Shown here: positions 12,400-29,503 of the stretch, one piece after another
Position numbering within the stretch: position 1 is the first letter of the stretch
How the letters are laid out: every line of letters starts with the position of its first letter
NCBI GenBank assembly: GCA_005223075.1
Contig: NJBO01000001.1
Location: 186,001-250,000, forward strand
DNA: 64,000 bases
Source: a candidate division TA06 bacterium B3_TA06
GTDB taxonomy: Bacteria > Hydrothermota > Tepidihabitantia > B3-TA06
Direction of reading: 5' to 3'
The notes under the pieces: model-generated
Told to the model about the DNA's origin: nothing
The model's input: the letters and a program-made list of their open reading frames with translations, nothing else
Database searches by the model: none
Made by a program: the position numbers and the translations under genes

Positions 12400-12724
12400 C
12401 TTGAATCTCTCTGATTTTTTTCTCTATCATTACGGTTTCATCCCAGATGAACCGCAGATCGGGCATGTACTTGATGACGATCCTTGAGGCCAGTTGACGT
12501 TTGATGGTTCCCTTTTCCTCCTCGAGTGCTTGCCGTGCCTTCTCGAGCGGCAGGTTCTGTTCGATGGTTGTGAAGTATAGATCTGCCCGTTTGAGGTCCC
12601 TCGTCACGACGCAGTCGGTAATGGTTATCCACCGCATCTCAGGGCGAGTGGAATCCTCAAGGAGAATGGATGCCACGTTCTGCTTAACTAATGATGCTAC
12701 CCGACGTGCTCGTTCCACAGACAT
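12365..12724 (-). CDS. rbfA: Ribosome-binding factor A
   Basis: 119 residues with the KH-like RbfA fold. Recognisable blocks are RARRVASLVKQNVA at the start, ITDCVVTRDLKRADLYF, and MPDLRFIWDE near the end. It helps 30S maturation at the 16S 5' end. The start overlaps the stop of the DUF503 gene by one base. Confidence 0.93.
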   Translation of the reverse strand: MSVERARRVASLVKQNVASILLEDSTRPEMRWITITDCVVTRDLKRADLYFTTIEQNLPLEKARQALEEEKGTIKRQLASRIVIKYMPDLRFIWDETVMIEKKIREIQDERSRSTERDT

Positions 12725-13008
12725 CAGTAAACCTCCCGTATGCTATAGTCTAGAAGCTGCCAGGCGCGGTGCCTGGACTGAATCCTGTTGACTACGCGTT
12801 CGAGCTCCTGTGAGTTGTGTCGTGCATCGTTTGAGACCACGGTCACCGCCAGTTTGGTTCGCTGCCAGGTGTCTTGTCCATCGACCTCGGCCACCGCCAC
12901 GTGGAACTCGGAGTGAAGATTATCCACCAGTCGTTTGAGATCACGTCTCTTGTCCTTCAGGGAACGAGAGGCGTTGTTTAGAAGCTCTATCTCCAAAAGG
13001 CCGATCAT
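12724..13008 (-). CDS. DUF503 (YlxP-like) protein
   Basis: 94 residues. The pattern [20 protein letters not shown] and a conserved NLHSEFHVAVAEVD match DUF503, a small protein almost always found between infB and rbfA. The function is thought to be linked to ribosome assembly but is not settled. It overlaps infB by 4 bp. Confidence 0.88.
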   Translation of the reverse strand: MIGLLEIELLNNASRSLKDKRRDLKRLVDNLHSEFHVAVAEVDGQDTWQRTKLAVTVVSNDARHNSQELERVVNRIQSRHRAWQLLDYSIREVY

Positions 13009-15152
13009 GTTCTTTCCCGCTTCACGATAGTGTAAAATTCAAGGGTGTCCCCCTCCTCGAGATCGTCCCACTCTGATATTCGTATCCCGCACTCGTATCC
13101 GGCCTCGACCTCCTTGACCGATTTCTCGAACCGCTGCAGGGAGGCGATCTCGGATTCGGTAAGCTGATCGTTGCTCCGATAGACGCGCACCTTGGCGTCA
13201 CGCGTAACCTTCCCTTCGGTGACGTACGAACCGGCTATGGTGCCTATCCTGGATACGTGGAATACCTGGCGCACCTCAGCACGACCCAGGCTTACCTCTT
13301 CTTCTTCCGGCTCAAGCATACCGAGCATCGCGGCCCGGATGTCGTCTATTGCATCGTAGATTACGTTGTAGTTGCGGATCTCGATCCCCTCGCGCTTGGC
13401 CTGGTCGCGGGCATCGGCATGGGCGGTTACGTGGAAGCCTATGATCACCGCCCCGGACGCTTCAGCCAGGTTCACGTCGGTTACGTTTATCGCTCCCACC
13501 CCGGCGTGGATTACCTTCACCTTCACTTCCTCAATGGAAAGGCCCTCAAAGGAAGAGGTGAGTGCCTCGACCGATCCGTAGACGTCTCCCTTGAGAACGA
13601 TACGAAGCTCCTTGACTCTTCCTTCCTGTATCTGCTGCTGGATAGCCTCGAGTGAGAGCTTGGATGAGGAGGCGAGTGTGCGTTCACGTCGCATGAGCTT
13701 GCGTCGCTGAGCCAGCTCGCGCGCGTCGCGTTCCGAGGCCACCACCTCGAACGTCTCACCGGGTTCTACGATTCCACCCACCCCCAGGACCTGAGCCGGC
13801 GTTCCAGGCGTAGCCTCAGCCAGGCGTTTACCGTTCTCGTCGGTCATCTCCCGCACGCGGCCGCTCCACTCCCCGCATATGTAGAGATCCGTTCGATGCA
13901 GTGTTCCCCGCTTTACGATGAGGGTAGTGATCGTGCCCTTGGAGGTGTTCAGTTTCGCCTCAACCACCACCCCCTTTGCCCTACCCTCGTATGGAGCCTT
14001 GAGATCAAGCTCCATGGCCGTAACCTGAATGGCATCAAGAAGGTCGTCCACAGCATCGCCGGTTATGCCTGAGACAGGGACTACTATTGTATTGCCGCCG
14101 TATTCCTCAGCCAAGATGTTATGTTCGGTGAGCTGGCTCTTGACCTTATCAGGGTCGGCTGTCTTAAGATCCGATTTAGTAATGGCTACGATTATAGGCA
14201 GGTCCGCGGCCTTGGCGTGATCGATGGCTTCTATGGTCTGTGGCTTTATGCCGTCGTCTGCGGCCACAACCAACACCGCAATATCTGCTACCGAGGCGCC
14301 TCGTGCACGCATGGCGGTGAACGCCTCATGACCCGGGGTGTCCATGAAGACGATCTTAAAGTCCTTTATCTGCGCGGTGTATGCGCCTATACGCTGGGTA
14401 ATCATGCCCGCCTCCTGTGCCGCCACCCGTGTTTTGCGGATGTAGTCCAAAAGGGTCGTCTTTCCATGATCCACATGTCCCAGAACCACCACCACGGGCG
14501 GCCGAGTTTTCACATCAAGGGATTCTTCTTCGGCTGTTTCCTGCAGAACGGGTTCTTCTTCCACCTCGATCTTAACGTTGAACTCCTCGGCTAGGATAGA
14601 GATCGTGTCCATATCCAGACGCTGATTGATGGTTACGAACACACCCATCTGGACGCAGCGTTTGACGATCTCAGCCGGTGGAACCTCAAAGGCGTGGGCA
14701 AGCTCTGAAACACTCATATATTCACTGACCGTTGCCTCTCTTAAAGCCCTAGGGAGTCCCTGGGGCTGCTGCTCAAATATCTTGGCTTGCTCCTCTGCTC
14801 TGCGAGTCTTGCGAGCCGGACGAGCGCGCTTGCCGCCCCTTTTTTTGGGGCGTTTGTGGTCCATCCGGGCAAGGGTCTGTTTGACTGCCTTCTGGACCGC
14901 CTCTTCCGAAAGCCTTCTTGGTTTACGTGCGGAGGATGGACGTCTGGGAGGTTTTGACTTCTTCATCGAGCGCTTTATCCTCTGCTTCTCCTCACGCAGC
15001 TTCGCCTTTACCGCCTCGAACTCCTCAGGCGTTATGTAGGATGTGTATCCTCGTTCCTTAAAGCCAAGCCCCTTCATCATGCGACCGAGCGCTTCGCTTG
15101 AAAGTTTCAGTTTCTCGGCAGCCTCAAAGAGCTTTAGCTTGCGGGCCGCCAC
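13005..15152 (-). CDS. infB: Translation initiation factor IF-2
   Basis: 715 residues. An N-terminal IF2N domain (about 1-50), a basic linker (60-125) and a second IF2N (about 140-195) precede the GTPase. G1 is GHVDHGKT (225-232) and G3 is DTPG (271-274). G4 reads TKSD (325-328) instead of the usual NKxD. Beta-barrel and C-terminal domains follow. It brings initiator tRNA to the ribosome. The GTG start shares one base with the nusA stop (TAGTG). Confidence 0.95.
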
Positions 15153-16840
15153 TACTTCTCCTCCTCTTCCGACTCCTTATCCTCACTCTCCTCGCTCTCT
15201 TCAGCGGTAGTTTTTTGCTCCTCCTCTTGCGGTGCTGGTTCTACCTCGTTCGATCCCCCCTCCTTTTTCTTTTCAGCCTGCGTTTCCTCGGCTGCTGACT
15301 CTTCAGACTGTGGGGCGGCTTCGGATATCTCTGGTTCTTTCTTAGATTTCATAGACTCCTCTGGTTTAACACTACCCTCAGTCTGGGGGGGGGCTTCGGT
15401 GTCCTTGATCTCTTCCTGCACTTCGGGCTGTGTTTCCTTCAGGGGTTCAGAGAGAGGTTCTTCTTCTGCTCCCTCCGTGGGTCCCTCTACCGCAGGTTCT
15501 TCCTCCTTGCTTTCTTCGGTCATGGCCTTCTCTGAGGACTTGCTCTCTGCCGCCCTCATCTCCTCCAACTTCTTCTTCTCGAAGAGCTTGCGCTCAAACT
15601 CACGTTTCTCAAGCTGCTCACGTATCTGGGTCTTGAGTTGCTCTACATGCGTGGGGTCCCAGCCCAGAACCTTGGCTGCCTCTGTAGCCGGTTGTTCGAA
15701 TAGCGAGACGACCGTTGTGAAGCCCGCCTCAAGCAGTGTTTGCCTCGTTTCTTCAGAAAGGAAGTCAAGTGTTTCGACCATGATCTGGGCCATGCGCTGG
15801 CTGAAGAGCCGGTTGCGGTAGTCTGACTCCTTGAGGATATCCAGCTTCGAGCTGGACAGTAGCGAAGCGAGCCATACATTCTGTCCCTTTCGACCGATCG
15901 CCTTGGAGAACTCCTCGTCCGGGACTACGACCGTGTAGGTTCCTTCCTCCTCAATAACCTCGTTGACCCGTGCCGGACTCATAGCCCCTGCTATAAAGGC
16001 CTTCTGGTCGGAATGCCACTTGATGACGTCTATCTTCTCGCCTGAGAGTTCCTTGGTGACGCTCTGGATACGCACCTTGCGGTAGCCTACACACGCGCCG
16101 ATCGGGTCTATCTTCTCGTCGTGACTGGTGACCGCAACCTTGGAGCGAACCCCGGGGATCCTTGCCACGTTCTTGATCTCCACGATCCCCTGCTGGATCT
16201 CAGGCACCTCGCGGGCCAAAAGCCTCTTTAAGAACTCTGGGTGGGTTCTTGAAAGATAGACCCTGGGCCCGATTGGGGTACGCTGAATCCTGAGAACATA
16301 GAACTTGAAGGGTGCCCCGATCTGGTGGTGATCGGTTTTGAGCTGGTCTCGCAGCGGCAGGATTCCATAGATAGGCCCGAGGTTGACCAGGATCTCTTCC
16401 TTCTCGAGCTTGTGAATGGTGCCTGATATAATCTCGCCCCTCTTCTTGATGAACTCGTTGAAGAGCTTGGCTCGTTCTGCATCGCGCAGGCGATGGGTGA
16501 GTTCATCCATGGTGCGTTGTATGGCAACTCGCCCGACCTCCTGCAGCGGAATCTCGATGCATACATCCTCGCCTTCCTTGACGTCAGGATTGATCCGCCT
16601 CGCATCCTCGAGAGAGATCTCCTGACTTATGTCTTGCACGCGCTCGACCGCGGTCTGGACGATCGCTACCTCTATCTCGCCCGTCTCAGGATTCACCTTG
16701 ACCTCATGCCGCACATTGCGGCCGAAGCGCCGTTTCAGACCGGCTACGATGCTTTCCTGCAAAGTATCGTAAACGTAACTTACCTCCACATTTCTTATAC
16801 GGGCAAGTTGGGTTATTAGCCTGGTGATCTCGGTTTCCAT
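15152..16840 (-). CDS. nusA: Transcription termination/antitermination factor NusA with long acidic tail
   Basis: 562 residues. The N-terminal RNA-polymerase-binding domain (1-120) is followed by S1 (about 130-200) and two KH domains; GIRSKVAVTSHD-like and IGACVGYRKVRIQ are the KH1 signatures, and FSKAIGRKGQNVWLAS is the KH2 GxxG loop. A helix-hairpin-helix region follows near 355-400. Residues about 428-562 are a Glu-rich, low-complexity tail not present in most NusA proteins. The operon order rimP-nusA-infB is standard. Confidence 0.95.
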   Translation of the reverse strand: METEITRLITQLARIRNVEVSYVYDTLQESIVAGLKRRFGRNVRHEVKVNPETGEIEVAIVQTAVERVQDISQEISLEDARRINPDVKEGEDVCIEIPLQEVGRVAIQRTMDELTHRLRDAERAKLFNEFIKKRGEIISGTIHKLEKEEILVNLGPIYGILPLRDQLKTDHHQIGAPFKFYVLRIQRTPIGPRVYLSRTHPEFLKRLLAREVPEIQQGIVEIKNVARIPGVRSKVAVTSHDEKIDPIGACVGYRKVRIQSVTKELSGEKIDVIKWHSDQKAFIAGAMSPARVNEVIEEEGTYTVVVPDEEFSKAIGRKGQNVWLASLLSSSKLDILKESDYRNRLFSQRMAQIMVETLDFLSEETRQTLLEAGFTTVVSLFEQPATEAAKVLGWDPTHVEQLKTQIREQLEKREFERKLFEKKKLEEMRAAESKSSEKAMTEESKEEEPAVEGPTEGAEEEPLSEPLKETQPEVQEEIKDTEAPPQTEGSVKPEESMKSKKEPEISEAAPQSEESAAEETQAEKKKEGGSNEVEPAPQEEEQKTTAEESEESEDKESEEEEK

Positions 16841-17293
16841 CTATCTCCTTTTGAAGAGTTCCTCGGTGGCTCGCTGCACCTGGGCCGAGAGGATCTCGTT
16901 GTATATAAGCCGACGGCCTGCTCCGGCTTCGATTTCAATTACTATGGCTTCTTCGTTTGCTTCCTTAAGATGTCCCTCAATCACCTCCCCTTCAATCTCT
17001 ATGCGCAGACGTTCCCCGACGGCGCTGCGGTAGTGTGCTGGTGTGTAAAGCTTGCGCTCAATCCCGGGGGTGGAGACGTCAAGCGCCAGCCTACGCCACT
17101 CATCGCGACTGGCGACAAGATTTAAGCTCAGGGCACGGCTTATCTCCTCGCAGTCTCCGAGCGTGGCCCCTCCCTTTTTATCCACGTATACCTGGAGCCA
17201 ATTGCCTTTGCGCTCCAGATGGTAAAGACTGCATCCGTGCTCCTTGATTACGTCGGCGACCAGTCTTTCCAAACCCTCAGATACCGCTGACAT
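16841..17293 (-). CDS. rimP: Ribosome maturation factor RimP
   Basis: 150 residues. The pattern GCSLYHLERKGNWLQVYVDK, CEEISRAL and the conserved LDVSTPGIERKL identify RimP, needed for 30S maturation. It abuts nusA (no gap) and overlaps proS by 17 bp. Confidence 0.95.
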   Translation of the reverse strand: MSAVSEGLERLVADVIKEHGCSLYHLERKGNWLQVYVDKKGGATLGDCEEISRALSLNLVASRDEWRRLALDVSTPGIERKLYTPAHYRSAVGERLRIEIEGEVIEGHLKEANEEAIVIEIEAGAGRRLIYNEILSAQVQRATEELFKRR

Positions 17294-18977
17294 CTTCCTT
17301 CTCCTTGCTGAGGAGTTCTCCTACCTTGGTTGCCGCATCTTCCTTGCGAACCGTGATGATCTCGCCCGTTGCCACATTCTTTATATCAACCTTTCCTTGC
17401 TTCAATCCACGCGGTCCCACTGTGATCCTGTAGGGGATGCCCACCAGGTCCGCGTCCGTGAACTTGACGCCCGGTGTTACATCACGATCGTCAAGAGCCG
17501 CCTGTACGCCTATCTCGCTCAATTCTTTGTATATCTTTGATGAGACCTCCGCTTCTCCCAGGGATATAACCTCGACCTCATAGGGAGCCACGGTCACAGG
17601 CCAGGCCATGCAATCATCGGCGTAATACTGATCCACAAGGGCGGCCATTGAGCGCTCGATACCTATCCCGTAGGAGCCCATCACGATGGCGCGATCGGCA
17701 CCCTTCTCGTCGGCTACCGTAGCACCCATCACCTCCGAGTACTTGGTGCCGAGCTTAAAGATATGCCCCAGCTCGATAGTGCGTTTTTCGACAAGCACCT
17801 CATCGCATCTCGGACATATATCACCAGCTTTCACCCTACGCAGATCAAGATACTCTCGGATATTCACCTCCTGTGAAAGGCTTATACCCACGATGTGGTA
17901 GTTGTCTTCGTTGGCTCCCACTGCATAGATATCAGAATCCTCAAGGCTCTTGTCGGCGTGGGTCTCTATCTCAACACCCTGAGGTCCAAGGAACCCCAAT
18001 GAGGCACCCATGTAACGTTCGGCATCCTCATCGGTAGCCGGGACGATATCGCCGCCGAACGTGCGCTTGAGCTTTTCCTCGCTCAGCTCGTAGTCCCCTC
18101 TCAAGAGTACCAACAGAGGTTTACCCCCTCTCATATACAAGAGGCTCTTGACCAACTGGGAGGGCTTGACGCCGAGAAAACCTGCTACCTCTTCTACGCT
18201 CTTCAGACCAGGGGTATGAACCTTTTCGCGTTTAGCTTGAAGTTTGGGTGCGGGAAGAGGTCTTCCCTCAGCGACCTGGGCGTTTGCCCTGTAGTCGCAT
18301 TTTGGGCACACAAACGAGATATCCTCACCTGAGGAGGCCTCTACCATGAACTCGGCCGACTCCCCTGCACCCATGATACCACCTGAAGCCTCCACGACAA
18401 AGAAGCGATGCCCCATACGCGTAAAAGCACGCGAGTACGCCTCGTGATGCAGCTTGAAGGAACGATCCAGCCCTTCATAATCCAGATCAAAGCTGTATGA
18501 GTCCTTCATGGTGAACTGACGGGTTCTCAGCACCCCTCCGCGGGGGCGAGGTTCGTCGCGGAACTTGGTCTGAAACTGGTACCAGATCTGCGGAAGCTCT
18601 TTGTAGGAACGAAGCTCCTTGGATGCCATAAGCGCCACGATCTCCTCGTGGGTCGGGCAGAGAGCCATGTCCTGGGCATTACGGTCGCGCAATCGAAACA
18701 TATCGTCGCCGTAGGCATCCCATCGGCCGGACTTATCCCACAGAGAACGCGGTGAAAGCGCTGAAAGATGCATCTCCTGCCCGCCGATGCGGTTCATCTC
18801 CTCGCGGATTATCTGGGTGATCTTCTGCGTCACGCGCAACCCGAATGGCAGGAGATTGTAAAGCCCGGACCCCACGGGTCTGACAAAACCTGCCCGCAGA
18901 AGTACCCGGTGACTCAGATTCTCAGCTTGACGCGGGTCTTCACGCAGCGTCGGCACCAGCGATCTTGACCAAATCAT
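17277..18977 (-). CDS. proS: Prolyl-tRNA synthetase, bacterial type with editing insertion
   Basis: 566 residues. Class II motif 2 is FRDEPRPRGGVLRTRQFTMK; motif 3 is GSYGIGIERSMAAL. Between them (about 230-385) lies the YbaK-like editing domain. An anticodon-binding domain forms the C-terminus. It is the first gene of an eleven-gene translation operon. The ATG lies 6 nt after a TATAAT box and has no Shine-Dalgarno, so the operon mRNA is predicted leaderless. Confidence 0.96.
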   Translation of the reverse strand: MIWSRSLVPTLREDPRQAENLSHRVLLRAGFVRPVGSGLYNLLPFGLRVTQKITQIIREEMNRIGGQEMHLSALSPRSLWDKSGRWDAYGDDMFRLRDRNAQDMALCPTHEEIVALMASKELRSYKELPQIWYQFQTKFRDEPRPRGGVLRTRQFTMKDSYSFDLDYEGLDRSFKLHHEAYSRAFTRMGHRFFVVEASGGIMGAGESAEFMVEASSGEDISFVCPKCDYRANAQVAEGRPLPAPKLQAKREKVHTPGLKSVEEVAGFLGVKPSQLVKSLLYMRGGKPLLVLLRGDYELSEEKLKRTFGGDIVPATDEDAERYMGASLGFLGPQGVEIETHADKSLEDSDIYAVGANEDNYHIVGISLSQEVNIREYLDLRRVKAGDICPRCDEVLVEKRTIELGHIFKLGTKYSEVMGATVADEKGADRAIVMGSYGIGIERSMAALVDQYYADDCMAWPVTVAPYEVEVISLGEAEVSSKIYKELSEIGVQAALDDRDVTPGVKFTDADLVGIPYRITVGPRGLKQGKVDIKNVATGEIITVRKEDAATKVGELLSKEKEDVSGI

Positions 18978-18983
18978 CCGATG

Positions 18984-19011
18984 ATTATATGGATGATTAT
19001 TGCCGCGTCAA
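18984..19011 (-). promoter_or_regulatory. Promoter of the proS-to-DUF1573 operon, leaderless type
   Basis: TTGACG (19006-19011), 16 bp, TATAAT (18984-18989), then 6 nt to the proS ATG. Confidence 0.8.
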
Positions 19012-19492
19012 GCTTCTCTATTTTAGGGGTTTATCCGATCGAGTTCGGTCGGGATTGTTCGCCTCCCATTGAGCAGAGAGTGTCCATGGTCAATACATCC
19101 TTACCAGGCAGTAGAGGGTTGATGGAAATGCCTTTACCCAAGTGCGTGCAGCTAAGGTGCGGGGTGTCACCCCCTCTTTTATTCTACCCGACGGGGGCAC
19201 TTCGTCCCCCATCAATGGCGAGAAGACGGCAAGGAATTTACTCTCCCCCGGTCGAAGGATGAAGACGGCAGGGAAACCTGTTCTCTTCCTTCGAGGGAAG
19301 GGGATGGTAAGCCAACCGCCCTTACATATATTTATTCCCCCTCCCTTGACGGGACAGTGTGCCCCTTGAGTGCCTGGTGCACTCATAGGGTAGGGGGCTA
19401 GTGGGAGGGTGACCCTTTAAGAGGAATCAGCCGTTGCGAGGAAGCAACCTCATACCCTGGCAACAATCTTCTGGTGCACGAACTGCAGGAAT
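19012..19492. repeat. Gene-free interval with CCCTCCC-type repeats
   Basis: About 480 bp without a credible gene between divergent proS and the O-antigen ligase gene. From about 19165 to 19400 it contains degraded copies of the family A palindromes (CACCCCCTC, CCCGACGGGGGC, CCCTCCCTTGACGGG, GGGAGGGTGA). Nothing is recognised in the remainder. Confidence 0.55.
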
Positions 19493-19521
19493 TTGACAAC
19501 CCAAGCCAAACGCAGTAGAGT
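19493..19521 (+). promoter_or_regulatory. Promoter of the O-antigen ligase gene
   Basis: TTGACA (19493-19498), 17 bp, TAGAGT (19516-19521). An ATG follows after 5 nt at 19527 and opens a 6-codon frame (MFIVAR) that ends in a TGA overlapping the GTG start of the main gene at 19544. Confidence 0.5.
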
Positions 19522-19543
19522 TAGGTATGTTTATCGTAGCGAG

Positions 19544-20959
19544 GTGACGAAGCAAGTGGCTGGCCTCAAAGAGATGAATCTTAAGCGATTCTCGCGTGAG
19601 CCTTTTTGGATTGCACTCGCTTTCGTGGGAGCACTGTCGCTTGCCATTGCAGCCGGAGTTTTTGTCTCAGGTATAACCGGTATTATTATAGCGGTGGCTC
19701 CAGTTGCTCTTCTATTGGTACTTTTATGCGTGCTTAATCCATATCCTTTTTGGATCTTGTACTTTGCGGTGGTCCCGTTCGCTTACATGGTCAGCGAGTC
19801 TCTACCCACAGGCAGTTTCGTTCGTTTCGGAGGGTTGATTATGGTGGCCCTGTCCGTTCCTTCGATTCTTCTATCCAAGCGTTTTCCAAGATTCAAGGTC
19901 ACCGCGTTAGGTGGTTCGATTTTACTTTTTTTTGCAGGGTGCGTGCTTTCACTTCTTGCGTTTTTTGAACTCAAAGGAGCCTTCAGGGGAGTTAGCCTTT
20001 ACTTCGGAAACGTCATGGCCTACTGGGTGTTCGTCAATATCTTTGCCACTGAGAAACGTCTCAGGACCGTCTTAGATGTGTTGATCATAGTGCTTGCAAT
20101 AGAGGGGATCATAGCGGTGGTTCAAAAAATTGTTAGCACGCCGCTCCTAAGAGCTACTGGAACGCTTGTGGATCCTAATGCCTTTGGATTCTGGCTGTTG
20201 CCATTCCTGTGTTTTGCTTTTTACTTTGGCCTCGCTGCCCGAAAAAGATGGCAAAAGTTGCTCTATTTCGGGGCCTACCTTGTAATGACTGTGGCTATCC
20301 CTCTAACCTATTCGCGCAGCATGATTCTTGTTCTGCTTCCTGTCCAGTTCATCCTCTATTGGCGTCAGAAGAAGCTCCATATCTTCGCGTTGGTGGCGGC
20401 AGCATCGATCGCTTTGCTTTATTTGGGCTTTGCCAAGGTTTTCACTTACGGGTTTAACATTAAATCTTTCTTGACTGCGGCTAGGGCGGCATCCATAGAG
20501 TGGCGGTTTTATTTCGCGAAAACAGCGGTAAGGATGTTTATAGACCATCCTATCTTAGGGGTTGGCGCGGATTGTTTTTACCATAAGTTCAGGTTTTATT
20601 CAACCATAACCCCTCACATTGCCAAGGAGGTTATCCACAACTCCTATCTCGAGATTCTTTCAGGCACCGGTTTGGTGGGTTTTCTTCCCTTTTTAGCGGT
20701 GATTTTCTTCTCCCTGAAGAACCTCTGGCTTACCCGCAAACACTATACAACACAGGGGGACCGTTCCCGCTCTTTGATGACCGAGGGTCTTATTGTTGGG
20801 TTTATAGCCTCACTTCTGGCCCACCTGTTTCTCTCTACACAACACCACATCCTTCTGTGGCTTGCCATAGCGATTGCCACAATTGTGGCCAACAACTCCT
20901 TTCGAATGCTCGAAGCAAGGCAAGGCCCTGAAAAGGGGAGTTCTTCTCCTGCTCATTAA
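19544..20959 (+). CDS. O-antigen ligase/polymerase-like membrane protein (Wzy_C type)
   Basis: About 471 residues with 10-12 predicted membrane helices. A periplasmic-loop signature IGVGADCFYHKF-like stretch and HNSYLEILSGTGLVGFLPFL match the Wzy_C/RfaL family, which joins or polymerises surface glycans. A longer frame begins at TTG 19493, but that TTG is the -35 hexamer. I prefer GTG 19544, which overlaps the stop of a leaderless 6-codon ORF (GTGA); ATG 19574 (MNLKRFSREP) is another option. No other glycan genes are adjacent, so the substrate is unknown. Confidence 0.78.
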   Translation: MTKQVAGLKEMNLKRFSREPFWIALAFVGALSLAIAAGVFVSGITGIIIAVAPVALLLVLLCVLNPYPFWILYFAVVPFAYMVSESLPTGSFVRFGGLIMVALSVPSILLSKRFPRFKVTALGGSILLFFAGCVLSLLAFFELKGAFRGVSLYFGNVMAYWVFVNIFATEKRLRTVLDVLIIVLAIEGIIAVVQKIVSTPLLRATGTLVDPNAFGFWLLPFLCFAFYFGLAARKRWQKLLYFGAYLVMTVAIPLTYSRSMILVLLPVQFILYWRQKKLHIFALVAAASIALLYLGFAKVFTYGFNIKSFLTAARAASIEWRFYFAKTAVRMFIDHPILGVGADCFYHKFRFYSTITPHIAKEVIHNSYLEILSGTGLVGFLPFLAVIFFSLKNLWLTRKHYTTQGDRSRSLMTEGLIVGFIASLLAHLFLSTQHHILLWLAIAIATIVANNSFRMLEARQGPEKGSSSPAH

Positions 20960-21059
20960 TCACCCAATCCATAAATGGGATTCCGAACAGGCTACAAATA
21001 GGGGCTTTTTAGTTAGGTTTTTGGACATCTTACCTGGGAGTTTTGTTACCCGCCTGAGC

Positions 21060-21087
21060 TTGACACAGGTATGTTAGTGACTATAAT
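21060..21087 (+). promoter_or_regulatory. Consensus promoter of a putative small RNA
   Basis: TTGACA (21060-21065), 16 bp, TATAAT (21082-21087): both hexamers perfect. No start codon or ORF follows before the terminator at 21120. Confidence 0.75.
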
Positions 21088-21093
21088 AGAAAT

Positions 21094-21146
21094 AGCCCTC
21101 CTCAGAAACACCTCCTGTACCGCCCCCAGCCGGGGGCGGTTTTTAT
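21094..21146 (+). ncRNA. Putative ~50-nt small RNA with two anti-Shine-Dalgarno motifs
   Basis: From the predicted start near 21094 to the end of the terminator. The unpaired 5' part holds two perfect CCTCCT hexamers (21097-21102 and 21111-21116), complementary to AGGAGG. The 3' part is a GC-rich hairpin with a T run. No known RNA family is recognised. Existence is inferred from the promoter-terminator pair. Confidence 0.5.
21120..21146 (+). terminator. Intrinsic terminator
   Basis: Stem CCGCCCCC (21120-21127) and GGGGGCGG (21132-21139) with a 4-nt loop, followed by TTTTT. It ends the putative small RNA and may also stop read-through from the O-antigen ligase gene. Confidence 0.85.
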
Positions 21147-21158
21147 TACATAGATAGA

Positions 21159-21191
21159 AGAAGCGGGAAGCAAAGCTTCCCCGCTTCTTTA
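21159..21191. terminator. Probable bidirectional terminator behind the ferredoxin gene
   Basis: Inverted repeat GAAGCGGG-AAGC / GCTT-CCCGCTTC with a one-base bulge, 22 bp beyond the ferredoxin stop. T-rich flanks are present on both strands but weak on the minus strand. Confidence 0.55.
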
Positions 21192-21212
21192 TTTCCCTAG
21201 CCTTTGAGACAA

Positions 21213-21398
21213 CTACTCTTCGATGATAATCGCTTCAGTAGGACAGGAATCAGCCGCCTCCTGGCAACATCCTGCCTCGTCACAGTTCGCACCGGCGATG
21301 ACTATCGCTTTGTCGTCCGTCTGTTCGAAGGCCTGTGGACAGATGTCCGCACACACGCCGCAACCTATGCAGGCTTCCTCATCAATCCTAACCTTCAT
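21213..21398 (-). CDS. Small ferredoxin, 4Fe-4S type
   Basis: 61 residues. The N-terminal cluster motif is CIGCGVCADICP; a last ligand lies in DSCPTEAI, as in Thermotoga/Clostridium-type [4Fe-4S] ferredoxins. CDEAGCC in the middle adds extra cysteines (usually a disulfide). An electron carrier; the hydrogenase or other oxidoreductases could use it (inference). Preceded by AAGGAGG and a strong promoter. Confidence 0.92.
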   Translation of the reverse strand: MKVRIDEEACIGCGVCADICPQAFEQTDDKAIVIAGANCDEAGCCQEAADSCPTEAIIIEE

Positions 21399-21425
21399 TG
21401 ATAATCCTCCTTCATAAGGTAGAGA

Positions 21426-21453
21426 ATTATAACGCTAGCGTAGTTTTTGTCAA
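21426..21453 (-). promoter_or_regulatory. Promoter of the ferredoxin gene (leadered)
   Basis: TTGACA (21448-21453), 16 bp, TATAAT (21426-21431). The leader of about 20 nt includes AAGGAGG. Confidence 0.85.
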
Positions 21454-21495
21454 CATCATGCCAGCCCCTGGGCAGTCTGATGGTAGTTTGTTTAC

Positions 21496-21524
21496 TTGAC
21501 AGCGAGCTTGAGTTAGGATAGACT
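21496..21524 (+). promoter_or_regulatory. Promoter of the GGDEF/TPR gene, leaderless type
   Basis: TTGACA (21496-21501), 17 bp, TAGACT (21519-21524), then 5 nt to the GTG start at 21530. Confidence 0.65.
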
Positions 21525-21529
21525 GTGTC

Positions 21530-23821
21530 GTGAGTCGTTCACTTGAGGAGTTCCGCAAGGAGACTAACCGCGTGCTTCGGAATCTTGACGCGAAGCTTGT
21601 AGGGGTTAGCTTCATACTCAACGATGAGGTTTCTGAGTTCGCCGATAGAGGTGTTAACATGGAGGCCTTAAGTGAGGTTTTGGGCCACGCCTCGCAAAAG
21701 ATTCACGAAGGCAAGCTTTTGCTGGGACTTCAGGGCGCGGGAGGCAGGCTTATAGCCGCCATTTCTGCAAAGGATGAGCCTGGGTTTGATCCTGGAAAGA
21801 TCTCCGGATTGCTTACCTTATTTTTGCGTAATTTCCTCTTGCAAGAGGAGCGAGATCGGGACGGCCTTACAGGTTTCTTGAAGAAGGAGTCGTTCAGAAT
21901 CCAGATGCTTGAGATGGCTAATCGGATCAAGAAGGATGCTAAATCCTCCGCCCCCAGGGATCTTAGCCGCAAACCGCGAAGCCCCTCGCTTTCCTTCTTC
22001 CACCTTGATCTTGACCACTTCAAGGGGATTAACGATACCCTAGGGCATCGCTTTGGGGATGAGGTGCTGCGCTCCTTCGCCAGGCAGGTCCGCTCCTTCT
22101 TTGCCGAGAGCGAATCTGGAGAGGTTCTGCTTGCCCGCCTGGGTGGCGAGGAGTTCGGGGCACTGGTTCCCTATCTTTCCGCGAACGAGGCCCAATCCCT
22201 GGGAGAACAGTTGTGTAAGTTTATAAGAAAAGCAAAGATCCCTACCGTAGATGAGCTGGATCGCTACCGGCGGGCCAATCCCGATTTCAAGGCCCTTTCC
22301 TTACCCCAGGTGACGGCAAGCATCGGTGTCGCTACAGCGGACAGCGCCGTTATACTCAGGGTACCGGATGATGTCCTTGAAGGGGAACTCGACCAGCTCT
22401 ACGAGCGGGCCGATGTGGCCACCTACGTGTCCAAGAAGCTGGGACGTGATCGGGTGATGGCCTTCGAGCGCATCCTTGCAGAGGGCGGCACCGTTCTCGA
22501 TTACGACGAGCGCACAGGCATAGTTACCCTTGACCTTGGTTCGGATATGGGGGTGGATGTGGGAGACGTATTCCGGGTCTACGACAACCGCAAGTTCACC
22601 GGCTCGGAGCCTATCATTCAGCCCGGTTCGCAGCAAAAGATCATCGGCTACTTCCCACGACTGGCTCTTGGCGAGCTTGAGGTGATCATGTGCCAGCCCC
22701 AGGTCTCGTTTGCCTTAAGGCGCGGAGGCGATACCTTTATCCCTGCCGCGGGGTTCTTCCTGGAGTGGGTTCCACCGTCCGAGCGGGGCAGGCGAGTCTC
22801 AGACGACCGCAGAAAACGTGATCGTAGAAAGGCAAGCGGGCTTTCTACGCGTTCGCTCTTTGACGCAAGGCTCAGGGAGAGCCTGAGGCGCGAGAGGTTC
22901 ATACTGATTCTTTTCTTCTTCGACAATCTGGCCACGATCCGCGAGCAGAGGGGCTCGGCAACCATTAAGGAACTATACAGCAGTCTTGCCGCGGAGCTTG
23001 AGAAGCTCTCGGTTCCAGGTGATGTCGTAAGCACCATCTCAAGCGAGTTTCTGGGTTTCCTTCCCTCTGCTTCTGCTCTCAAGCCTATCAAGGAAAAGGT
23101 AGCAGAACTCAAACGCAACTTCGCCGCGCGCGAGGGGGCGACCTTCAGTGCGGTGCTATTCACGAGCTCAACTGAAGGAGTTGAGCGCTCGCGCGCCCTT
23201 GAGATCGCGCGCAAAGGGGCGGAGATTGCACGGTTCAAAGGGGTGGATCAGATGCTGGTGCTTGATCCCCAGGTGCTTTTATCAAAGCTTTACTTCTATC
23301 ACGAACACGGTGAGTACGACAAGGTTGCTGCCGAGTTCGGAGAGCTTCACGCGCTCGGGATCTCGGATCAAAAGGCGCTTCTTTACTATGCCGAGGCGCT
23401 CAGTTATCTGGGGCGTCTTGAAGAAGCGATGGAAAGGGCGAGCAATGTCCTCAAAAAAGATGAGCACAACCTTACCGCTATCCAGGTGATGGCTTCTTCC
23501 GCGTTCGAGCTGGGACGATATACCGAAGCGGTGCAGGCATACGAATCTCTAAGCAAAGAGAAGAAGGGCAAGATCGCTGCGTGGCAGTGGCGTGACTTCG
23601 GGATAGCACTGCTTTATCTGGGCGAGACCGAGAAGGCGCTCGACCATCTCGAACGTGCGCTTGCAGCCGATCCCACCGACGCCTCGGTCATATACCACAA
23701 GGGCGAGGTTCTTCTGGCACTCGGCAAGAACGAGAAGGCACGGGCGGAGTTCATGCGTGCATTCGAGCTGGGCTATAGAGAACTCAGTCCTCAGGCGGCA
23801 AAACTCTTAGGAGAGGGTTAG
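21530..23821 (+). CDS. Diguanylate cyclase-like protein with second degenerate GGDEF domain and TPRs
   Basis: 763 residues, no signal peptide. The N-terminus (1-105) may be GAF-like. The first GGDEF domain (about 110-315) has HLDLDHFKGINDTLGHRFGD and GGEEF (205-209), so it is probably active; no RxxD inhibitory site is seen just before it. Residues about 325-395 contain LDLGSDMGVDVGDVFRVYD, like the C-terminal fold of FlgT-type proteins. After an Arg-rich linker (416-440), residues 441-580 repeat the GGDEF fold with SSEFL (504-508) in place of the signature, so this copy is inactive. TPRs fill 585-763. Probably a c-di-GMP enzyme with scaffold function. The yjbQ-like gene follows by 3 bp. Confidence 0.83.
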   Translation: MSRSLEEFRKETNRVLRNLDAKLVGVSFILNDEVSEFADRGVNMEALSEVLGHASQKIHEGKLLLGLQGAGGRLIAAISAKDEPGFDPGKISGLLTLFLRNFLLQEERDRDGLTGFLKKESFRIQMLEMANRIKKDAKSSAPRDLSRKPRSPSLSFFHLDLDHFKGINDTLGHRFGDEVLRSFARQVRSFFAESESGEVLLARLGGEEFGALVPYLSANEAQSLGEQLCKFIRKAKIPTVDELDRYRRANPDFKALSLPQVTASIGVATADSAVILRVPDDVLEGELDQLYERADVATYVSKKLGRDRVMAFERILAEGGTVLDYDERTGIVTLDLGSDMGVDVGDVFRVYDNRKFTGSEPIIQPGSQQKIIGYFPRLALGELEVIMCQPQVSFALRRGGDTFIPAAGFFLEWVPPSERGRRVSDDRRKRDRRKASGLSTRSLFDARLRESLRRERFILILFFFDNLATIREQRGSATIKELYSSLAAELEKLSVPGDVVSTISSEFLGFLPSASALKPIKEKVAELKRNFAAREGATFSAVLFTSSTEGVERSRALEIARKGAEIARFKGVDQMLVLDPQVLLSKLYFYHEHGEYDKVAAEFGELHALGISDQKALLYYAEALSYLGRLEEAMERASNVLKKDEHNLTAIQVMASSAFELGRYTEAVQAYESLSKEKKGKIAAWQWRDFGIALLYLGETEKALDHLERALAADPTDASVIYHKGEVLLALGKNEKARAEFMRAFELGYRELSPQAAKLLGEG

Positions 23822-23824
23822 AGT

Positions 23825-24247
23825 ATGGCGGTTTTCTCAGATAAGATCTCCTTGAGCACCAAGGGGTTCTGTGACGTTCATGACATAACACCAAGGCTGC
23901 GAGGGATCCTTACCGAAAGCGGATTACAAGAGGGGATATGCTGCGTGATCCTTGCCGGTTCCACAGGCGGGATAACCACCATCGAGTACGAGCCAGGGGT
24001 GCTAAAGGATCTTTGCGAAGTGTTAGAGAAGATCACGCCCTCAGACAAATCCTACCATCACGATGCGGCGTGGGGTGACGGCAACGGCTTCTCCCACCTG
24101 CGCTCCGCACTTATCGGAGCGTCTGCCTCAATTCCCTTCAGCTCGGGCAAGCTGATACTCGGGACCTGGCAGCAGGTTGTCTTCTTAGATTTCGACAACC
24201 GCCCCCGCGAGCGCACCCTGCACGTCCAGCTGGTAGGCGAGAAGTAG
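23825..24247 (+). CDS. YjbQ/UPF0047 family protein
   Basis: 140 residues. The conserved blocks are GSTGGITTIEYEPG, HHDAAWGDGNGFSHLRSALIG and LGTWQQVVFLDFDNRPRER. The family has thiamine-phosphate-synthase-like side activity, but its main role is unsettled. Short distance to the GGDEF gene suggests cotranscription. Confidence 0.9.
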   Translation: MAVFSDKISLSTKGFCDVHDITPRLRGILTESGLQEGICCVILAGSTGGITTIEYEPGVLKDLCEVLEKITPSDKSYHHDAAWGDGNGFSHLRSALIGASASIPFSSGKLILGTWQQVVFLDFDNRPRERTLHVQLVGEK

Positions 24248-24284
24248 TCCGCTTACCTGTTAAATCCTGGTTATCTGGTCCTCT

Positions 24285-25661
24285 TTAATCTGGAGGGGAT
24301 TCTTTTAGCCTCTCGTGTTTCAAGAGCAGCAGGCCGTCCTGTGCAGCCAGTGTATCGTAGCCTGTGGTTAGCCTGCGGGCATCCTCATACCGACTCTCCC
24401 ACTCGGCAGGGTAGATGTTTCCTTCAAGATCAATCAGCACGTAATCCGCATTCTCGATCTGCGGATAAAGCACGACGTCCTTACGGTTCACAAGATGAGG
24501 AGCCAGGTTGTTGCTTACGGAGAGGGAAGCATCGGCAGGAATCCTTTCAATCAACCGGTGAGTTTGCAGACTCCTATTCAGGTTTATCCCCAGCTTAAAC
24601 GGGTTGGGAAATCGCAAAATCAAAGCAGGGACGGCCAGTCCGACCAGTATCAAGGCGACTGGCAGCTTTATCCTCCTTATTCCTTTTATCGAAGCGAAGA
24701 ACAGCAAAGGCAGTATCCCTGCCGAGTACTGGTAGGTCAGGCTTGACTGGTGGGGACCATCGGAGAGCAGGTGGGCGAGTAGCAAGGGTAAGATAAGTGC
24801 GGCCTCCCATCTTGTAAGGGCGAGGGCCCCAACGGATGCAGCAAGCAAAGCCACTGTCAAGAGTTTTCCAGGTTGTCCAAAGGTCTGGGTAATAAGCACC
24901 CAGGGTCTGCGAAGGATGCTTCCAATAATCTCTGCGGCGTTCGATCCCAGGCTCGCGTAGTGGGCAGAGATCAACTCACCCTGGCCGGGTGCACGGAAGC
25001 AAGGCAGCACGATGAATAATACGAATGGCAGCCAGGCGATTCCGATCGCCGTCATCAACGTCCCTTGAATCCATTTTCGCTTAACCAGGGCGTAAATCCC
25101 CAGGGCCAGGAATACGAGGCCCATCTCCTCCTTAAGGGTCAAAAGGGCGAACGCAGGGAGTAGCGCCCACCAAGCTCTTTCTGTCTCAAAGAGATAAAAG
25201 AACCCCAAGACCAGCGGGATAGCGAATACCTCGGGGTGGAAGTCGAAGCGAAGCACATGGTGAAGGAAGGGGTTGGCAAGGAAGATGGCGATGATAACCA
25301 GATGTTTTCTGGAATCTTTCACCCAACCCTCAAGCAGCTTGATGAGGAAGAAAAGCCCCAGGGCAACGGCAAGCGCCTGAAGGAGACACAGGAGCAAGGC
25401 GTTCGGCCAGAGCCGGTATAGACCGGCAAGAAGGAAACTTATGGGGTGAAAATGGCCGCTGAACCCGTGAAAAGAGTGCAGCGAATCCCACACCCTGCCA
25501 CGGAACGCGATGTTGTAGCAGATGCTTGCCCTTATCCCCAGATCGTAGGCGTATGTGTTGAAGGTAAGGTGCTGTAAGGTCTTGTAGGCTCCGAGGATCA
25601 CAAAAACGATGCCTGAGAACGCAAGGAGTCGGCGTTTGCTCCAGAAGCTCTTATTGACCAT
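24285..25661 (-). CDS. DUF2079-family membrane protein
   Basis: About 458 residues and 10 or more predicted membrane helices. The pattern YAYDLGIRAS, HFHPISFLLAGLY, DFHPEVFAIPLVLG and LLTLKEEMGL matches DUF2079, relatives of GT-C glycosyltransferases. A longer frame starts at 25697, but that position lies in the -35 box. ATG 25661 is 8 nt after the -10 and is preferred, giving a nearly leaderless mRNA. Substrate unknown. It converges with the yjbQ-like gene. Confidence 0.8.
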   Translation of the reverse strand: MVNKSFWSKRRLLAFSGIVFVILGAYKTLQHLTFNTYAYDLGIRASICYNIAFRGRVWDSLHSFHGFSGHFHPISFLLAGLYRLWPNALLLCLLQALAVALGLFFLIKLLEGWVKDSRKHLVIIAIFLANPFLHHVLRFDFHPEVFAIPLVLGFFYLFETERAWWALLPAFALLTLKEEMGLVFLALGIYALVKRKWIQGTLMTAIGIAWLPFVLFIVLPCFRAPGQGELISAHYASLGSNAAEIIGSILRRPWVLITQTFGQPGKLLTVALLAASVGALALTRWEAALILPLLLAHLLSDGPHQSSLTYQYSAGILPLLFFASIKGIRRIKLPVALILVGLAVPALILRFPNPFKLGINLNRSLQTHRLIERIPADASLSVSNNLAPHLVNRKDVVLYPQIENADYVLIDLEGNIYPAEWESRYEDARRLTTGYDTLAAQDGLLLLKHERLKESPPD

Positions 25662-25669
25662 TTCAGACA

Positions 25670-25697
25670 AGCATACCCGTCGTGCTTTCTCTGTCAA
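25670..25697 (-). promoter_or_regulatory. Promoter of the DUF2079 gene, nearly leaderless
   Basis: TTGACA (25692-25697), 16 bp, TATGCT (25670-25675), then 8 nt to ATG 25661. Confidence 0.65.
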
Positions 25698-25716
25698 TGC
25701 GACTAGGATGTTTATC

Positions 25717-25755
25717 CGGGGTCCCCATACGAAGGCGAAGCATTCGCTTGGGGTG
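25717..25755. repeat. Palindromic element family B, copy 2
   Basis: 39 bp, CGGGGTCCCC ... GGGGTG, CTTCG apex on the minus strand. First of two adjacent copies between divergent promoters. Confidence 0.65.
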
Positions 25756-25760
25756 TTTAT

Positions 25761-25800
25761 TCGGGGTCCCCGTGAGTTTACGTAGTAAAGTCACGGGGTG
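25761..25800. repeat. Palindromic element family B, copy 3
   Basis: 40 bp, CGGGGTCCCC ... GGGGTG with a CTACG apex. It follows copy 2 after 5 bp; the two interiors differ in sequence while keeping their pairing. Confidence 0.65.
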
Positions 25801-25808
25801 ATAGCATC

Positions 25809-25836
25809 TTGACAGCAGGCAGGCTCTCCTTATCAT
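25809..25836 (+). promoter_or_regulatory. Promoter of the DUF362-CHASE2-scpA operon, leaderless type
   Basis: TTGACA (25809-25814), 16 bp, TATCAT (25831-25836), then 6 nt to ATG 25843. Confidence 0.72.
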
Positions 25837-25842
25837 ACTCCA

Positions 25843-26880
25843 ATGAGATCGAAGGTCTTGTTTTTGCCGGGCGAGGAGAAGTCTGAGCTTCTTGAGCGCC
25901 TCCCCTTGCTGCTGGGTCGCCTGATAGATGGAGGCTTCTCCAACGATGCGTTTTGTGGAATGAAGGTTCACGTTGGTGAGAATGGCAACACAACCTTCGT
26001 GCCTGCCGATTTTGCACGCGTCGGGGTGCGTTTCCTTAAGGAAGCAGGCGCGCGCCCGTTCCTCTTTGAGACCAACACCCTGTACTACGGGCAGCGGGGT
26101 AATACGGTGGATCACCTTAATCTCGCAGCAAAACACGGATTCTCCCTGGAAAAGGTTGGGGCGCCTTTTCTTATAGCAGACGGTATGCGAGGCGAGAGCT
26201 CGGCCCGCATTCCGGTAAAAGGCAAGCACATCCGCGAGGCGCAGATCGCATCACTCGTTCCCAACATACCCTGTATTGTGGGCCTCTCGCACTTCAAGGG
26301 GCACATGCTTTCAGGCTTCGGCGCCACGATCAAGAACTTCTCGATGGGCTGCGCTGCAAGGGGCGGAAAGCTCCAGATACACAGCCTTTCAAAGCCCTGG
26401 ATAGATGTCGAGCGCTGCACTCGCTGCGGCGAGTGCCAGAAGCGCTGTCCCGCAGATGCTATCGAGACCAAGGGTGGGGATTTTGTGATAGTTCGTGCTA
26501 AGTGCACCGGATGCGCCGGATGCATCGGGGTGTGCACTGCCAGGGCGGTCCGCATCCAGTGGAACGAGGCGTCCGAGTCCGCATCACAGAAGATGGCCGA
26601 GTATGCCCTTGCAGCACTTTCGGGCAAAGAGGCTTTCTACGTCAACTTCCTTGTTAACATTACCAAGGAGTGCGACTGTTACGGGGAGAAGATGAAGCCT
26701 ATCCATGAGGATGTAGGTATCCTTGCCTCGCGTGATCCGGTGGCAGTTGATCAGGCGTGTCTGGATATGGTGGAAGAAGAGATAGGCTCAGCCCATAAAG
26801 AGGTTGATCCAGAGATTCAACTTGCTCACGGTGAGCGGATAGGGTTGGGAAAAAGAGATTATGAACTGGAGGAGCTGTGA
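25843..26880 (+). CDS. DUF362 protein with 2x[4Fe-4S] ferredoxin domain
   Basis: 345 residues. The N-terminal DUF362 part contains GLSHFKGHMLSGFGATIKN. Residues about 185-235 hold CTRCGECQKRCP and CTGCAGCIGVC, ligands for two [4Fe-4S] clusters. DUF362 proteins are cytoplasmic iron-sulfur proteins without an assigned reaction. The next gene starts with a 4-bp overlap (GTGA), so a link to it is likely. Confidence 0.86.
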   Translation: MRSKVLFLPGEEKSELLERLPLLLGRLIDGGFSNDAFCGMKVHVGENGNTTFVPADFARVGVRFLKEAGARPFLFETNTLYYGQRGNTVDHLNLAAKHGFSLEKVGAPFLIADGMRGESSARIPVKGKHIREAQIASLVPNIPCIVGLSHFKGHMLSGFGATIKNFSMGCAARGGKLQIHSLSKPWIDVERCTRCGECQKRCPADAIETKGGDFVIVRAKCTGCAGCIGVCTARAVRIQWNEASESASQKMAEYALAALSGKEAFYVNFLVNITKECDCYGEKMKPIHEDVGILASRDPVAVDQACLDMVEEEIGSAHKEVDPEIQLAHGERIGLGKRDYELEEL

Positions 26881-28817
26881 TAGATCTACGTAGGCTGCGA
26901 GATGCCGCGATTGTAGGATTTGGTTTGGCATTCATCCTTTTGGTTATCCAGATATTGGTTGGCAATCCCTTCGAGGCTTTAGACAGGCCCATGCACGATG
27001 AATTGGAGCGCACCTCACTTCGTCCCAACTCAGACATCGTGCTCCTTGATCTGGATGAGGCGAGCGTGGCTGAGCTTGGCGATAGGCTGTTCTGGCCGGA
27101 CTTATGGCTGCCCCAGGTGTTTGAGCAGCTGGCGTACGCAAAGGCGGTAGGGGTAACCTTACCCCTCTCTCGCGGGTATTCATTTCCCCCTGAAGCGCAG
27201 GGCATACTCCGCCGGGCCAAGGCGGATTCCCTTTCCAGATGGTTCCGTCTGCCTGCTGGCCGCACCGGCGAGATACTGGACAGCCTCTTTGCCTACGCGG
27301 AGTGGGACGAGGCGCTTATACACACCATCCGATCCAACAACAATATCTACTTTGGGTTCAAGATGCTTGATGAGAGCTACTCGAATGAGATACTGCCCTT
27401 CTCCGAACGGATCCCCAATCGCAGTAAGGACTCGCTTCGCGCTAACACAGGGATTTTGGATAAAGCGGATTTCCTTGCCCCTCCAATGAGGTGGCTGCTT
27501 GCCTCTAACGGCATGGGCTACATGGAGGTGATCTATGACAAGGGTGGAGTGGTCAGAAAGGTCCCGCTTATCGCTTTGTGCAAGGGGAATTTCTACACCT
27601 CGCTCTCATTGACCCTGCTGCAGGCCGTAGAGGGACGCGAGGATATCGATCTACCGCGCAGTCGGGTTCTCACGCTGGGCAAAGAGGAGATCAGGCTCGC
27701 CGAAGGCTACGCCTATCGTATCCACTACACCTCAAACCTTGGGCATTTCACACGGGTTTCGGTATCGGCACTTCTGGGTGGAGAGGTAGCACCGGATACC
27801 TTTGCCGATAAAGTCGTCATAATAGGTTCCTCCTTCGAACCCTACGCAATGAGCGTACCCACGCCTGTAGACGGTGCCATGCCGAGGATGGTTCTTGTGG
27901 CGAATCTCTTGACAAACCTTATCCAGCGCAGGCAGGCGGCTCCGCCTAATATCGTGGCGACCTTCATCATAACCTTGCTACTTGCAGGGTTGGGGGCGTT
28001 TGCGATTATGATCCCCTGGCGCAAGTTTACACTTCCCGCTTTTGCAGTGCTTGTTGCAATCTTCTATATCGTAGTGGCCGTCTCGGCTGCAAACGGAACA
28101 AGAATCGCATTCTTTACACCACTTTTTGCATCCATCCTTGCGGTGGTGATCGGCGCATTTATCTATCACTATGCAGAGGGGAGGCGTCGCACCTATGTCA
28201 AACAGATGGTCGGGCAATACTTCCCCCCGAACCAGGAGAAGGCTTACATCGAGCGGTTCATGAATTTACCTTATCTGAGGGTCAATCGCGAGTCTGTGGT
28301 GATGGCTGTCTACCTGGATTTTCAAAAGAAGGAAAGGAGCCTAAAGGAGGCGCTTGCGAGCTTCGAGGAGTTCCGGTCCACGCTTCTTGAGATCACCCGT
28401 AAACATGAGGGTATCAGGGTGTCATTTACAGGCAACTCCAACAGGTTTCTTTTCACAGGTAAGGATTGCTGCGCCCAGGCGTGTCATGCCAGCCTTGAGA
28501 TACGGCGTTTCTTTACCAACTTTAACGCCAGGTACGTAACCGAAGGCATAGGCGAGTTTAGCCTGGGTATCGGACTTGCCAGCGGCGAGACCTTTGTAAG
28601 CACCCTGGGCAAGGTGCCTCTTGTGGATCTGGCGGTGTTCGGGGAACCCCTCGTATGGGCGTGTCAGTTGGCGCTCACGAACTTCGAGCAAAAAACGAAG
28701 ATGATCCTCATCGAAGATGGTGTTTTCAAACATCTACCTGCCGGCTCCAAGGCCGCCGAATTCGGCGAGCTTGAGATTGCCGGCCAGAAACACACGGTCT
28801 ACGAGTATCTGCGTTGA
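26877..28817 (+). CDS. CHASE2-sensor protein with degenerate adenylate/guanylate cyclase domain
   Basis: 646 residues. N-terminal membrane helix (about 10-30), extracytoplasmic CHASE2 domain (about 35-345, with IVLLDLDEASVAELG and DTFADKVVIIGSS), two or three further helices (about 350-430), and a class III cyclase-like domain (about 460-646). In the cyclase domain one metal-site Asp may survive in VYLDFQ, but the usual GDA motif reads TGNSNRF, so the second metal ligand is missing and catalysis is doubtful. It may sense a signal without making a nucleotide. Overlaps both neighbours by 4 bp (GTGA, TTGA). Confidence 0.82.
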   Translation: MIDLRRLRDAAIVGFGLAFILLVIQILVGNPFEALDRPMHDELERTSLRPNSDIVLLDLDEASVAELGDRLFWPDLWLPQVFEQLAYAKAVGVTLPLSRGYSFPPEAQGILRRAKADSLSRWFRLPAGRTGEILDSLFAYAEWDEALIHTIRSNNNIYFGFKMLDESYSNEILPFSERIPNRSKDSLRANTGILDKADFLAPPMRWLLASNGMGYMEVIYDKGGVVRKVPLIALCKGNFYTSLSLTLLQAVEGREDIDLPRSRVLTLGKEEIRLAEGYAYRIHYTSNLGHFTRVSVSALLGGEVAPDTFADKVVIIGSSFEPYAMSVPTPVDGAMPRMVLVANLLTNLIQRRQAAPPNIVATFIITLLLAGLGAFAIMIPWRKFTLPAFAVLVAIFYIVVAVSAANGTRIAFFTPLFASILAVVIGAFIYHYAEGRRRTYVKQMVGQYFPPNQEKAYIERFMNLPYLRVNRESVVMAVYLDFQKKERSLKEALASFEEFRSTLLEITRKHEGIRVSFTGNSNRFLFTGKDCCAQACHASLEIRRFFTNFNARYVTEGIGEFSLGIGLASGETFVSTLGKVPLVDLAVFGEPLVWACQLALTNFEQKTKMILIEDGVFKHLPAGSKAAEFGELEIAGQKHTVYEYLR

Positions 28818-29503
28818 GTCCTTACCGCGTTTCGCTTGAGGCCTACGAAGGGCCGGTTGATCTTCTTCTCTACTTCGTTCATCGGGACAAGCTGGATGTG
28901 CTTCGCATCCCGGTTGCCCGGCTGGCGGATGAGTTCATAGCCTACGTCCAGACTATGGGTGCGGATCTTTCCGAGCTTGCCGATTTCCTGCTCATGGCTT
29001 CTATACTCTTGCGCTGGAAGATGCGGGTGCTCTTGCGGGAGAGCATACAGTGGGAGGAAGAGGAGGTTCTCGAGCCGGTTACACTTTCGCGTATCCTTGC
29101 CGAGTTTGCCCGATATCGGGAGACAGCGGCGTTCCTCGAGGAGCGGCGTGAGCATAACCTGCGGCACTATCCCAGGGGGCAGAAGATCACGCCGGAAGGC
29201 GAGGGCAAGATCACCGAGCTTCTGCAATCCTTCAGCGTTCTTCTTGAGCGCGAGCGTCCGCGTCAGCCCATGCTTTTGACCCGTGACGACTGGACCATCG
29301 AGGAGGCCGGCGATTGGTTGATGGAAACCCTTGCCAGACAGGGGGAGTTTGAATTCTTTGCCACCATGCGCCAGCGGCAATCGAGTCTCTTTGACATGCT
29401 TATCCTGTTCCTGGCCGTACTTGAGCAGCTCAGGCTACGCACGGTCAAAGTCACCCAGTCCGAGCCTTTCGCGGATTTTGTGGTGGAATGTATCTCAAGG
29501 TGA
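28814..29503 (+). CDS. scpA: Segregation and condensation protein A
   Basis: 229 residues. The start YRVSLEAYEGPVDLLLYFVH and the block ELADFLLMASILLRWKMRVLL are typical of ScpA, the kleisin subunit of the bacterial SMC complex. The C-terminal winged helix is present (ILFLAVLEQLRLRTVKVTQ). The start is TTG, overlapping the previous stop (TTGA). No scpB is found next to it. Confidence 0.9.
   Translation: MSPYRVSLEAYEGPVDLLLYFVHRDKLDVLRIPVARLADEFIAYVQTMGADLSELADFLLMASILLRWKMRVLLRESIQWEEEEVLEPVTLSRILAEFARYRETAAFLEERREHNLRHYPRGQKITPEGEGKITELLQSFSVLLERERPRQPMLLTRDDWTIEEAGDWLMETLARQGEFEFFATMRQRQSSLFDMLILFLAVLEQLRLRTVKVTQSEPFADFVVECISR

Follow-up and report, generated by a model that had tools for sequence, protein, structure and literature searches.

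A conserved promoter-terminator unit with two CCUCCU motifs: a candidate family-specific small RNA gene in Stahlbacteria

The window, a 64,000-nucleotide stretch of the genome (G000) of candidate division TA06 bacterium B3_TA06, contains a compact promoter-terminator unit that faces a convergent ferredoxin gene. The features of the locus are as follows.

21060-21065, + strand: -35 box TTGACA of the putative small RNA (sRNA) gene, read from the sequence and identical in all eight family genomes
21082-21087, + strand: -10 box TATAAT of the same gene after a 16-nt spacer, also identical in all eight
21094-21147, + strand: predicted small RNA of ~50-54 nt, AGCCCUCCUCAGAAACACCUCCUGUACCGCCCCC-AG-CCGGGGGCGGUUUUUAUU; we infer its transcription from conservation and fold
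21097-21102, + strand: first CCUCCU (anti-Shine-Dalgarno, anti-SD), within the invariant GCCCUCCUC of the alignment
21111-21116, + strand: second CCUCCU, lying in CACCUCCU, an exact match to 8 nt of the 16S rRNA 3′ tail (sequence, alignment and 16S comparison)
21119-21147, + strand: intrinsic terminator from the fold, a 9-bp stem and U tract; the stem is invariant and the loop varies
21160-21187, - strand: second hairpin between the unit and the ferredoxin gene, probably the terminator of the latter
21213-21398, - strand: convergent gene for a 61-aa 4Fe-4S single-cluster ferredoxin (Fer4_13), from Pfam and synteny
21406-21411, - strand: AGGAGG Shine-Dalgarno (SD) sequence of the ferredoxin gene, the complement of each CCUCCU motif
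21426-21453, - strand: TTGACA-16-TATAAT promoter of the ferredoxin gene

The initial annotation placed the promoter of the unit at 21060-21087, correctly to the base, and there are only two 12/12 promoters within positions 12000-31000, the other being that of the convergent ferredoxin gene. Motifs were counted stretch by stretch in 1.78 Mb of the genome, with open reading frames called crudely and without a gene finder. TTGACA-N16-TATAAT occurs in 58 copies and the letter-reversed motif in none, from which we take it to be a genuine (housekeeping) promoter form of this genome. The 16-nt spacer is strongly preferred, with 58 perfect copies as against 11 having 17 nt. Transcription had been proposed to start near 21094, and the block conserved among relatives begins exactly there, 6 nt after the TATAAT. 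Both CCUCCU motifs are present as reported, and the predicted fold of the RNA (-20.4 kcal/mol, z = -3.1) leaves them in an unpaired 5′ tail of ~25 nt followed by a single hairpin. This hairpin is the strong terminator described earlier, with a 9-bp stem and 4-nt loop (21119-21140) and then TTTTATT. Paired CCTCCT motifs 2-14 nt apart have five intergenic matches across the ~182 kb of DNA that is non-coding; of these, the 21097/21111 pair alone sits in a promoter-terminator unit. The 47-nt conserved transcript has no AUG, GUG or UUG start codon, in keeping with the description of the unit as lacking an ORF.

One copy of the unit is present in each of the eight genomes of this WOR-3/Stahlbacteria family, which fall into three genera. 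Conservation in relatives had been set beforehand as the test by which the proposal might be refuted, and the promoter, the +1, both hexamers and the terminator are invariant in all eight. The conserved block, AGCCCUCCUCAGAAACACCUCCUGUACCGCCCCC-NN-CCGGGGGCGGU, is 47 nt long, begins at the predicted +1 and closes with the terminator stem, and varies only in the loop, where AG, AU and GU are found and G002 has one extra C. Identity is thus 96-98% in the RNA body and 100% in the -35 and -10 boxes, with no less invariance in the linker and terminator stem than in the CCUCCU motifs themselves. The surroundings have diverged, and between this genome and the other genera identity is 27% in the upstream 40 nt, 38% in the promoter spacer, and 56% in the discriminator and 48% in the segment after the terminator (both short). 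For the ferredoxin gene, identity at third codon positions is 34-38% in G005 and G006 (the automatic comparison for G007, which took a wrong start, being left out). The presence of a conserved promoter and RNA block amid diverged flanks fits selection on both transcript and promoter, and this letter-for-letter conservation outlasts the saturation of neutral sites.

A DNA search of 61 genomes gave matches in all family members, and pattern and model searches, which covered the eight family genomes and a further 139 from the phylum, did not find the unit in any of these 139. Pattern matches in other families (G088, G096 and G106) are located elsewhere and were judged on reading to be chance or coding matches, as were model matches in G064, G057 and G053. 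Exact matching against 84,980 species genomes gave six MAGs, each of which bears the name Candidatus Stahlbacteria or WOR-3, and viral contigs contain no exact match. The genome has no second copy of the unit; a whole-genome scan allowing up to 3 mismatches gave one further match, antisense inside an apparent coding repeat. We reject a phage or mobile origin, given the lack of viral-contig exact matches, the single copy and the vertical pattern, and a chance juxtaposition of promoter and terminator, given the conservation. Within the unit, no match to an Rfam family attains the gathering score of that family, and our literature search found no paper covering both Stahlbacteria and sRNA. The contrast between the conserved unit and its surroundings, together with the restriction to one family, the absence of an Rfam family and the lack of a start codon, strongly supports its identification as a genuine, family-specific sRNA gene.

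The ferredoxin gene is the only neighbour kept beside the unit in all eight genomes, each with AAGGAGG ahead of it, and the outer genes differ between genera, including the gene on the far side of the ferredoxin. Identities of neighbours outside the window were taken from translated sequence. An O-antigen ligase-like (Wzy_C) gene lies upstream in genus g1, and apparently in g2, and is 100 bp from the unit in this genome. No such gene lies upstream in g3 (G006 and G007), in which the unit is unchanged and the next sizeable upstream gene, on the opposite strand, is one that we take by recognition to be PurM-like.

We consider, with some reservation, that the unit is probably a stand-alone gene for a regulatory RNA of ~50 nt that would act by SD pairing without Hfq. 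The strong housekeeping promoter would start the RNA at 21094 and the intrinsic terminator would end it near 21146, with the unpaired 5′ tail exposing two CCUCCU motifs that would pair in trans with AGGAGG in the Shine-Dalgarno region of mRNAs. Such pairing would block 30S binding, and with its two anti-SD motifs the RNA would most likely switch off translation of other genes, with no help from Hfq; no match to Hfq (PF17209) was found in any of the nine genomes of the order, in searches with positive controls. The convergent ferredoxin mRNA would be the natural first candidate target. The 16S 3′ tail is canonical (...GGATCACCTCCTTTCT) and shares 8 nt with the second motif, which makes pairing of CCUCCU with SD sequences plausible. 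GGAGG or AGGAG stands within 10 nt of ~65% of the first starts tested (gene starts being crude), so that pairing partners exist and SD pairing is possible for many mRNAs. A -10 box is present directly before the start in 74 of 570 genes, compared with a background of ~13 per 5-nt bin, which indicates that roughly 10-15% of genes may be leaderless. The initial annotation supposed that many mRNAs are leaderless; the start-adjacent -10 signal bears this out in part, although ~65% of the tested starts are leadered. Its further suggestion, that the RNA could single out leadered genes against a background of leaderless ones, is unsupported because the majority of tested starts carry an SD.

Complementarity of at least 8 nt at ribosome-binding sites was found for 34 genes as against 79 ± 27 for shuffled-flank RNAs, so extended complementarity is not enriched and lies below the control average. 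Predicted pairing with the ferredoxin mRNA (-13.1 to -14.4 kcal/mol) is ordinary, as the median for SD genes of this genome is -14.6. Among nine top candidates subjected to orthologue checks (eight sent in the query), a CAGGAGG-type site is kept in several genomes for two, and in each case it probably overlaps the end of the upstream coding sequence; no target clearly conserved across genera emerged. A duplex-energy target search was discarded, its output being dominated by internal start codons. The earlier proposal of pairing with AGGAGG leaders draws plausibility from the canonical anti-SD match and from core complementarity to SDs, but not from extended complementarity or from a clear cross-genus target. 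Two further points count against the SD-pairing reading: the choice of targets is not explained by the 6-nt cores, and the invariance of the linker and terminator stem exceeds the needs of simple SD pairing.

Related RNAs are present elsewhere in these genomes. With the sRNA unit as type 1, type 2 units also have their own promoter and terminator, with CCTCCTCCC-YCAC-WTATCCTG, and are found in G006 and G007 (L068, L077, L069, L138, L158 and L161; G006:C4 5783/5932/6300, G007:C219 and C126). Three related units are in tandem in G006, one of them divergent, and type 2 is detected at E ~5e-5 to 1e-4 by the R1 model, which was built from type 1. Type 3, (A)TTACGCCCTCCTCCCAYACTTATCC[GT]G plus a hairpin, was found by pattern search in all eight family genomes, mostly shortly upstream of genes, with several copies in G006 and G007; it includes L096/L132 (G000:C1:117804, - strand), L131, L133-L136 and L151-L160. 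Its sequence is near-invariant, ATTACGCCCTCCTCCCAYACTTATCC[GT]G, and is followed by a covarying hairpin in which 7 of 14 pairs have changes on both sides (compensatory); the covariation score was reached by none of 500 shuffles and was far lower in every slid control. Adjacent genes include some that, by recognition, are presumably aldolase-like, STAS-like and response-regulator-like. Types 2 and 3 are likened to type 1 by architecture, with a GC-rich hairpin ~19-22 nt after CCUCCU; they differ in having CCUCCUCCC-ACACUUAUCC[UG]G and a single anti-SD, and type 3 differs from both others in sitting in 5′ leaders and lacking a U tract. We regard type 3 as a candidate new cis-regulatory RNA motif. 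None of the sibling loci, type 3 included, has an Rfam match reaching the gathering score.

Two other units were seen in this genome. One (L219, G000:C2:142485-142676) has a promoter, CAATACGTTCAGTATGGGTGGGTTTGCCGAAAGGCAGTGAGATACCCAC and a terminator, with relatives L213, L214, L215, L216 and L220, DNA matches in G001, G002, G003, G005 and G006, and no Rfam match up to E 0.1. The second (L211, G000:C1:93958) is a short unit with a perfect promoter and ACAACCUCCCUGG (ACCUCCC) before the terminator, and has a full match in the closest relative only.

The siblings bear on a different reading, in which the RNA is a decoy, either a mimic of the 16S 3′ tail or a C-rich ligand, that titrates a protein or ribosome-associated factor. 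The conservation of linker and terminator stem is what protein recognition would lead one to expect, extended mRNA complementarity is not enriched, and the CCUCCUC-plus-hairpin modules in cis in 5′ leaders suggest a common recognising partner. However, no titrated protein is known here and known sRNAs with C-rich tails work through pairing, and we regard a decoy as rather unlikely. A broader and comparably doubtful possibility is that the family uses an unpaired CCUCCUC tail ~20 nt before a hairpin as a portable RNA module, in types 1 and 2 acting in trans and in type 3 placed in 5′ leaders, with one shared partner; type 1, as a mimic of the 16S rRNA tail, would then regulate translation initiation in general, in a lineage that seems to lack Hfq.

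Less probable still is that the unit is a local device, a dedicated regulator or insulator of the ferredoxin gene working by transcriptional interference, as a terminator or by short-range RNA-RNA control, with no wider regulon. The adjacency of unit and ferredoxin gene in all eight genomes despite differing outer genes is what such a device would predict, but there is no overlap between the two predicted transcripts, which end at separate terminators, and an invariant 25-nt unpaired tail would be superfluous for an insulator. It is very improbable that the unit is just the terminator of the upstream Wzy_C gene, with the promoter-like sequence and CCTCCT there by chance: the two are close in this genome, but the upstream gene differs in g3, on which ground we reject this reading, and no variation is seen in the -35, the -10, the +1 block or either motif. 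A short protein-coding gene or leader peptide is equally improbable, given the lack of start codons and, for the other strand, third codon positions that are as invariant as the rest.

The unit would be a first well-supported sRNA gene in Stahlbacteria, one that no Rfam family fits, and would give a lineage lacking Hfq a concrete, testable candidate for an anti-SD regulator. With its siblings it offers an entry to sRNA control in an uncultured phylum.

Several known sRNAs resemble the unit in part. The alpha-r14 or cuckoo RNAs of Alphaproteobacteria (e.g. NfeR1 and Rhodobacter CcsR), for which SD pairing has been proposed as the mode of action (PMC10746234), also have invariant unpaired CCUCCU(CCC) motifs, several per RNA. 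Theirs occupy the loops of three or four hairpins, whose stems vary, whereas the unit has two motifs in one linear 5′ tail followed by an invariant terminator stem; CCUCCUCCC in hairpin loops, a trait of that group, is absent from the unit, whose sole hairpin is the terminator. CcsR genes accompany a DUF1127 gene, and no DUF1127-like ORF was noticed near the unit. CyaR (RF00112) shares CACCUCC(U) just ahead of the terminator hairpin and is the best, though insignificant, Rfam match (E = 0.49, 18.7 bits compared with a gathering score of 47); its extra 5′ structure and use of Hfq are not common to the unit. IsrR of Staphylococcus and FsrA of Bacillus have single-stranded C-rich regions that pair at SD sequences, as proposed here, and IsrR does so independently of Hfq (PMC9410917), a parallel to a lineage without an Hfq match in which the conserved neighbour is a ferredoxin. 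No sequence homology to either was noticed and the RNA of the unit is much shorter; no conserved operator is visible in the promoter spacer, so iron control is unsupported. Membership in these families fails on structure and sequence where tested, and the unit is a new sRNA family that has alpha-r14/cuckoo, CyaR, IsrR and FsrA as its functional analogues.
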